Assembly (NCBI GenBank): GCA_012719345.1
Contig: JAAYAN010000110.1
Coordinates: 1 to 35,770 of the forward strand
Direction: 5' to 3'
DNA length: 35,770 nt
Source of the DNA: Ignavibacteria bacterium
GTDB taxonomy: Bacteria; Bacteroidota; Ignavibacteria; Ignavibacteriales; Melioribacteraceae
A model generated the notes under the pieces. It made no database searches. It saw only the letters and a list, made by a program, of their open reading frames with translations, and had not been told where the DNA came from. The translations under genes were made by a program, and so were the position numbers. Shown here one piece after another: positions 35,480 to 35,770 of this stretch (the stretch's first letter is position 1; the number at the start of each line of letters is the position of its first letter).

Positions 35480-35770
35480 TTATTTCAGCAGCATCATTTT
35501 CTTCACGGCTGTGTAACTGCCGGCTTCCAGACGATATATGTAAACGCCGGAAGCAAACTGCGAACCATCAAATTTAACTTCGTAAAATCCCGCCTCCTGG
35601 TTTTGGTTTACAAGCGTGGCTGTTTCCTGTCCGAGGATGTTGAAGATTTTTAGTGACACTGACCTCACCCCCGACCCCTCTCCTTTTAAAGGCGAGGGGA
35701 GTGAATATTTTATTGTTGTTACGGGGTTGAACGGATTCGGGTAGTTTTGTTCTAACGAAAATACATCCGG
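35480..35770 (-). CDS. C-terminal part of a type IX secretion cargo protein (T9SS type A sorting domain)
   Basis: The last 96 codons of a gene that continues past the right edge. The sequence is the Ignavibacteria-style sorting domain: FSLEQNYPNPFNPVTTIKYS, then SVSLKIFNILGQETATLVNQ, GFYEVKFDGSQFASGVYIYR and the final AVKKMMLLK. This C-terminal signal sends the protein through the type IX system across the outer membrane, where it is removed or anchored. Between IKYS and SVSLKIF lies LPSPLKGEGSGVR, encoded by a palindromic repeat and longer than the short linker usually found there. The passenger domain lies outside the window. Confidence 0.92.
   Translation of the reverse strand, partial: PDVFSLEQNYPNPFNPVTTIKYSLPSPLKGEGSGVRSVSLKIFNILGQETATLVNQNQEAGFYEVKFDGSQFASGVYIYRLEAGSYTAVKKMMLLK
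35675..35699. repeat. 25-base near-perfect palindrome inside the T9SS sorting domain
   Basis: CCCCTC at 35675-35680 and GAGGGG at 35694-35699 flank an almost palindromic core (CCTTTTAAAGG), giving an extended inverted repeat with a mismatch on each side. It is read in frame and encodes part of PSPLKGEGSGV. It has the look of a dispersed palindromic repeat, but only one copy is visible in this window. Confidence 0.7.

Follow-up and report, generated by a model that had tools for sequence, protein, structure and literature searches.

Short palindromic sequences lie in frame in one predicted loop of type IX secretion sorting domains in Ignavibacteria

The DNA analysed here (the window) was a stretch of 35,770 nucleotides from an Ignavibacteria bacterium (GenBank assembly GCA_012719345.1, contig JAAYAN010000110.1). 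It is the entire contig C116 of a source genome of 4.02 Mb in 323 contigs. Near its end, a near-palindrome is read in frame within a gene for a protein with a type IX secretion system (T9SS) sorting domain. This insert is probably one copy of a set of palindromic elements resembling repetitive extragenic palindromes (REPs), which have been inserted recurrently and persist in a tolerant loop of the sorting domain, numbered here as loop 2-3. Taken as observed were the common site, the several families, the copies outside genes, the empty sites, both orientations, nesting and the recurrence in related genomes. The features of the window were the following:

35480..35770, minus strand: C-terminus of a protein with a T9SS type A sorting domain, 96 codons plus stop, truncated by the contig end at 35770.
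35663..35698, minus strand: codons of PSPLKGEGSGVR, residues 25-36 of the open frame, mostly from the palindromic element (from the translation, linker comparison and model).
35675..35699, no strand assigned: core hairpin, with arms 35675-35686 and 35688-35699 (from inverted-repeat search and folding).
35664..35700, no strand assigned: approximate extent of the element, with a boundary inferred from the look-alike at C266:396 (CTCACCCC..CCCCTCTCC..GGCGAGGGGA).
35644..35770, no strand assigned: 127 bases identical to the beginning of contig C295 (from sequence comparison).

The open reading frame (ORF) at 35480-35770 on the minus strand is a T9SS type A sorting domain, above the curated cut-offs of both TIGR04183 (41.7 bits, cut-off 23, E 8.2e-11) and PF18962 (40.1 bits, cut-off 27, E 4.6e-10). 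The PSPLKGEGSGVR codons were placed between IKYSL and SVSLKIFN with the frame unbroken. A single inverted repeat was found in 35600-35770; its 12-base arms were 92% complementary (one mismatch) around a 1-base spacer. Folding of 35655-35715 as single-stranded DNA gave a z of -3.8, and one of 200 shuffles was equally good. With up to 3 mismatches allowed, a 20-base pattern taken from the unit matched once in the window and in none of 100 shuffles. The first-pass annotation had described the near-palindrome as inserted in frame in a T9SS sorting domain, and sequence, frame, inverted repeat and domain matches all agree with this.

Beyond the shared 127 bases, C295 carries the end of a second T9SS gene, in which the insert is the same and the downstream DNA differs. 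The length of the shared stretch suggests an assembler k-mer overlap; if so, the window locus and the C295 locus both carry the insert. The exact unit was present in two copies in the genome, both in T9SS domains, and a variant at C266 was outside any long open frame.

The linkers of all sorting domains of the genome were then compared. TIGR04183 gave 83 matches, 78 of them above cut-off. The linker was defined as the residues from PNPF to the LKVFNILG block. This motif was unable to read 22 of the 83 matches, and distinct linkers numbered 61 in the length census, 62 in a later listing and 60 in the tree. Plain 21-residue spacing was found in 33 of the 61 readable linkers, and 28 were 24 to 41 residues long. 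In 25 of these longer linkers, palindromes of seven sequence types occupied one shared place; the three others (two SPVTV and one in L051) were not clearly palindromic. The insert types were:

Type A: SPLKGEGSGVR.
Type B: SPLLGGVRGG.
Type C: NSPLYQRGETGG.
Type D: SPLSRGVSEGRGV.
Type E: TPPASSPLVKGRTEVGF.
Type F: PAGRQ (CCCTGCCTGCCGGCAGGCAGG).
Type G: VETQHAAS or VETTRRV (GTAGAGACG..CGTCT).

Types A-E shared a common plan (C-rich arm, small loop, G-rich arm, extra G-run) with differing sequences. Types F and G resembled neither A-E nor one another. The window insert lengthens the plain spacing by a net 8 residues: the insertion proposed at first pass is real, and its size is slightly below the roughly ten residues given there. 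The proposal that the linker tolerates it is supported by the many domain copies whose linkers bear palindromes. The repeated domain also accompanies assembly breaks, including the end of the window; a contig end lay no more than 300 bases from 22 of the 83 domain matches, where about 4 were expected.

Palindromes were also counted over the whole genome. The pattern CCCCTN{4,16}AGGGG gave 39 forward matches, against 9 for a reversed-pattern control. Removal of 3 overlapping alternatives left 36 separate places, of which 19 were in T9SS linkers; TIGR04183 hits cover 0.47% of the genome. These 19 comprised 14 places inside TIGR04183 hits, 3 within 60 bases of one (partial hits) and 2 assigned by eye (C147:14677 and C152:369), which are T9SS linkers split by an insertion sequence (IS). 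The binomial probability for 17 of 36 was about 2e-30, the related domains being non-independent trials. The other 17 hairpins, C14:7586 excepted, were in no frame or in frames that ran for at most 134 codons from stop to stop; absence of a long open frame was judged from such frames and not from gene prediction. The C14:7586 match is in meaB (PF03308) and was taken as chance. Some non-linker hairpins (C53, C57) resemble terminators. A terminator reading of the linker copies was set aside, because these lie inside the reading frame, about 200 bases ahead of the stop codon.

The two divergent families were counted as well. F palindromes were listed at 13 places, reduced to 12 because one overlapped another, and 5 of the 12 were in T9SS linkers; for G palindromes the count was 3 of 12. 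Copies outside long open frames were found for E-like (C46, C164, C284, C98), A-like (C266) and B/D-like (C13, C56) units and, at several places, for F and G. Members of these families are thus present in T9SS domains of this genome and also away from its long open frames. The suggestion of a REP-like unit that can be read as protein is supported for these families, and the support is thinner for the exact window unit, with its two T9SS copies and single C266 variant.

Repeated insertion is suggested by empty sites, by one element in both orientations, by a nested palindrome and by near-identical domains with three different inserts. An empty site of family F was recognized in L008, which reads ..TTATC followed by AATTACCAATGAACAG.., by comparison with L058, which reads ..TTATT, then CCCTGCCTGCCGGCAGGCAGG, then AATTACCAATGAACAG..; the difference is 21 bases. 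The single-contig genome G294 holds a pair of paralogues, identical at 531 of 642 aligned bases, that differ by a 21-base linker insert. Two paralogues in L178 shared 83% identity over 486 residues; the linker of one was plain and that of the other had an E-like insert. The proteins of L151 and L179, from two metagenome-assembled genomes, were 71% identical over 442 residues with an insert in only one. The E unit of L056 was reversed relative to that of L054 with the frame kept. In L079, an F (PAGRQ) palindrome was nested in an E unit. The domains of the window, C295, C135 and C113 were 91-95% identical over 216 non-linker bases and carried inserts A, A, B and E, respectively. A tree of 60 domains, built with the linker left out, required 25 changes of insert class (minimum 11), and no multi-member class formed a clade. 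Paralogues and near-orthologues lacking the insert thus exist, and the sequence is neither unique in the genome nor shared as an ordinary linker by all orthologues.

Two side observations concern how units combine. At L149:3153-3242, one open frame holds three consecutive hairpins before the sorting-domain block, the first two read as PPFEGGQG and the third as SPLGRGVGG, as though the linker had accumulated units. In L193 and L235, which have another sorting-domain subtype, a second insert-like peptide, LTPTLSTSGEGVR, was seen by eye after the IFGQ motif, in addition to the linker insert.

Part of this pattern could arise by recombination only, if a few domains had received inserts and duplication, gene conversion and exchange among the approximately 80 copies had then distributed them. 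The 127 identical bases with insert A in the window and C295 fit such a history, as does the excess of contig ends at the domains, which behave as assembly-breaking repeats. Plain domains and inserted domains also tended to group apart on the tree: 12 changes were needed, against a shuffled mean of 20.2, and 0 of 500 shuffles were as low. Nevertheless, both orientations, nesting and empty sites require insertion events, the same types of palindrome are present away from long open frames, and at this site other members of the class have sequences of their own. Recombination as the only process was regarded as unlikely.

The position of the inserts was examined in 138 hairpin-bearing linkers, 122 of which came from loci chosen for the pattern. 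The codon phase of the unit start (0/1/2) was 50/44/44, and the start fell at codons 13-21 past PNPF in 132 linkers. No such hairpin was found downstream of the linker among 230 domains. The even use of phases and the spread of starts argue against a conserved peptide or a single target base and for a stretch that can bear any in-frame insert. A reading as a coding peptide under selection was set aside, since all codon phases are used.

These positions also bear on target-directed insertion, in which the elements or a mobilizing enzyme would prefer linker DNA, so that the concentration would reflect targeting and not survival. None of the 17 non-linker hairpins of the source genome was a repeat copy in a recognizable gene, despite the many other protein loops available, and one loop is used by several sequence types; both points are in keeping with targeting. 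It is disfavoured by insert starts scattered over codons 13-21 and three phases, by the PAGRQ family, which enters a few codons earlier than the others, and by sites outside genes, where no common flank was evident by eye. Unlike families would, furthermore, all require one target. Targeting was accordingly given a low probability.

The sorting domain of the window was modelled with AlphaFold2 from an alignment of 70 sequences (the window plus 69 of the 85 domains listed out of 145 usable). The model had a mean predicted local distance difference test score (pLDDT) of 91.7 and six strands of at least 3 residues. The insert occupied residues 25-35, in a loop between strands 17-24 and 36-43; with the short strand 5-6 taken as strand 1, this is predicted to be loop 2-3 in our numbering. 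A profile search of solved structures returned 8glj_D (E 0.00042), and a single-sequence search was without a match. Foldseek returned nothing at E <=0.001 with the model; the mirolase C-terminal domain 8qb1 came fourth (E 3.2e-03, TM 0.50-0.54), amid other immunoglobulin-like (Ig-like) folds. The sorting domain of the window is predicted to be an Ig-like beta sandwich. In the mirolase report, loop 2-3 is long in mirolase and takes a different course in other T9SS domains, loop 3-4 and the C-terminus are essential, and replacement of 3 residues of loop 5-6 by 11 was harmless to secretion (PMC11285876). The loop 3-4 motif with its glycine probably corresponds to FNILGQE, directly past the insert. 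G47 was invariant across the 70-sequence alignment.

The long mirolase loop also suits a reading as ordinary protein variation, with proline/glycine-rich loop extensions whose DNA is palindromic by accident, and the loop does vary without palindromes (L051, L171). One DNA plan, however, gives unlike peptides in all codon phases, and the unit DNA appeared by eye to be more alike between copies than the flanks. Similar units outside long open frames largely refute this reading, which was held to be very improbable.

Other genomes were searched for a hairpin followed by an LKVYD-type block, and a scan of named genomes gave at least 107 stretches. Many of their titles read Ignavibacteria, Melioribacter or Ignavibacteriales, and others only Bacteroidetes, Chlorobi or bacterium. 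Their linkers contained further types (e.g. DSRFRGND and ALSGVEG), and some were nested (GVSGEAGRGV, for instance). The phylum was sampled with 395 genomes, those of each rank being counted by eye, and the pattern was present in 10 of the 98 from this class (the source genome included), under five family codes. It was present in 0 of 297 sampled genomes of the phylum outside the class; this absence is weak evidence, because the search pattern had been designed around the domain and hairpin studied here. Two genomes, G361 and G294, were picked for having linker hairpins, but their hairpin counts were not selected by linker. In G361, 10 of 14 hairpins were in T9SS linkers (the one at C172 assigned by eye) and 4 were in no clear gene, one of the latter (C51:357) lying in a 155-codon open frame. 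In the 107 loci, 106 of 132 hairpin matches were in linkers, a biased count since the loci were preselected for a linker hairpin. Another 18 hairpins of these loci were placed in other open frames of at least 100 codons; 12 of these were, by eye, in T9SS-type domains that the linker motif had missed, leaving 6.

Possible movers of the elements were sought among Y1 transposases. Y1_Tnp gave 7 matches in the source genome, 6 of them above cut-off. Only one of these 7 places bears palindromes of the linker families: at L285:1-388 (C56), a fragmentary IS200-like Y1_Tnp frame is overlapped by one family G palindrome, another lies behind it, and four more G copies are found within the next 4.3 kb. 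Family G begins GTAGAGACG; families A-E are without a GTAG end by eye. As a separate observation, the Y1_Tnp gene at L284:1332-1984 (C304) has a different palindrome on each side (CTGTCAGGGTCGCGCACCCTGACAG and GGTCAGGGTGCGACCCTGACC), a layout like that of a REP/transposase pair.

A 1441-base IS with a DDE_Tnp_1 transposase was found at C147:14705-16145 (L132:1506-2946), where it immediately follows the family C hairpin of a T9SS linker. It is bounded by an exact 39-base direct repeat that contains the palindrome. Target duplications are generally shorter than 39 bases, and the repeat is possibly an assembly mis-join of two domain copies. The 18-base end of this IS was also found right after a further hairpin, in another T9SS linker (L133:344-361, C152), as if the IS favoured these palindromes. 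We read it as a later guest at the hairpins.

Several points weigh against recurrent insertion into a tolerant loop, or reduce the evidence for it. Some of the 36 hairpins are chance matches or terminators, as the 9 control matches against 39 imply, and a single IS lies between two of the 19 linker places, which hence represent one linker (C147). The two exact copies of the window unit may derive from one insertion followed by duplication. Insert classes were slightly clustered on the tree, whose 25 changes compare with a shuffled mean of 27.5 and were equalled or undercut by 2 of 200 shuffles. The tree has few columns, its well-supported branches are compatible with a single origin of C, F, H and D, and gene conversion could also have scrambled it. 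In G294, only 3 of 12 hairpins were in linkers; 3 were in frame at another site of a similar small secreted protein, and the remaining 6 were in no clear gene. At L159:6994-7011, an E-type palindrome lies in frame within an Eco57I-like methylase, outside T9SS domains. No Y1 transposase of the type associated with REPs (RAYT) adjoins the CCCCT hairpins: among the 7 Y1_Tnp places, the only transposase type searched, the nearest on the same contig is about 19 kb away. The DDE-transposase IS behind two hairpins could conceivably be the mover. Either selection or target preference could underlie the choice of site.

With these points taken into account, recurrent insertion and persistence in loop 2-3 was retained as the best explanation. 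Elements of approximately 20-50 bases, mostly G/C-rich and of several families, would insert repeatedly, whatever the orientation or codon phase, and would be found away from long open frames and, read in frame, within loop 2-3. Movement may occur by transposition or template copying. Copies that break a frame or hit an intolerant gene would be lost, and those in loop 2-3 would persist if their length keeps the frame, so that purifying selection would be the reason for the site. The loop would bear inserts because it is away from the essential strand 3-4 motif, because about 80 domain copies exist and because the mature protein probably no longer carries the signal. In Porphyromonas gingivalis, the sorting domain is reported to be cleaved off following export; such removal may also take place in the source organism. 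Exchange between repeated domain copies may be a secondary route of spread. Loop 2-3 could thus be a refuge for selfish DNA inside genes, as the data suggest. A wider proposal is more doubtful, although possible: that the loop is a standing landing pad across the class, entered independently by many families, with the signals serving as reservoirs for copying between domains. The idea that the inserts may be a mechanism for diversifying secreted proteins, put forward at first pass, is not supported. The insert is in the sorting signal, which is cleaved in P. gingivalis, the codon phases are about equally used, and no sign was found that the variation is used.

The approximately 80 equivalent sites per genome make the difference between tolerance and targeting measurable. 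Loop 2-3 of T9SS signals is probably a naturally insertion-tolerant site and could be useful for tagging. The elements would explain SPLKGEG, PLLGGVRGG or PAGRQ stretches wherever these are present in annotated sorting domains, and they help to explain breaks of draft assemblies at sorting domains.

Comparison was made with three known situations. Length variation of loop 2-3, the same loop by our numbering, is already apparent between solved domains; the available part of that report does not mention insertion of mobile palindromes as its cause (PMC11285876). REPs, including GTAG- and CGTC-tagged repeats, are likewise palindromes of 20-40 bases, with several families in some genomes (PMC3733652). 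They are mostly downstream of genes and some are intragenic; it has been suggested that flexible linkers or loops may accept insertions as neutral. IS can target REPs, and CGTC repeats are reported in Chlorobi and Bacteroidetes (PMC3733652). Families A-E of the source genome differ from the tagged repeats in being without an end tag (by eye) and without an adjacent Y1 transposase. For intragenic REPs, the available text stresses replication and repair genes and does not name T9SS (PMC3733652). In Caldithrix, a different and mainly intergenic palindrome is described (PMC5317091). No report of palindromes concentrated in T9SS sorting domains was found in the open-licence literature searched.

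A further likeness is to the Rickettsia palindromic elements (RPEs), repeats that lie in intergenic DNA and also, as in-frame fusions, within protein genes, where they are apparently tolerated (PMC2229807, PMC3733652). The present palindromes, too, occur outside genes and in frame within genes; for the exact window unit, only the C266 variant is outside a long open frame. RPEs measure 105-146 bases (PMC2229807), and the short RPE-4 and RPE-6 exist (PMC3733652). The units of the source genome are approximately 20-50 bases long, belong to several families and cluster in a single homologous loop shared by one family of domains; they are set apart from the RPE families by described sizes and not by sequence comparison. 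As far as the available texts go, known in-frame palindromes of Rickettsia and REP-rich genomes are scattered over many genes, and those described here occupy one loop of one domain family in several lineages. In-frame palindromes (RPEs) and intragenic REPs are thus already known, and the concentration in T9SS sorting domains would be the new part.
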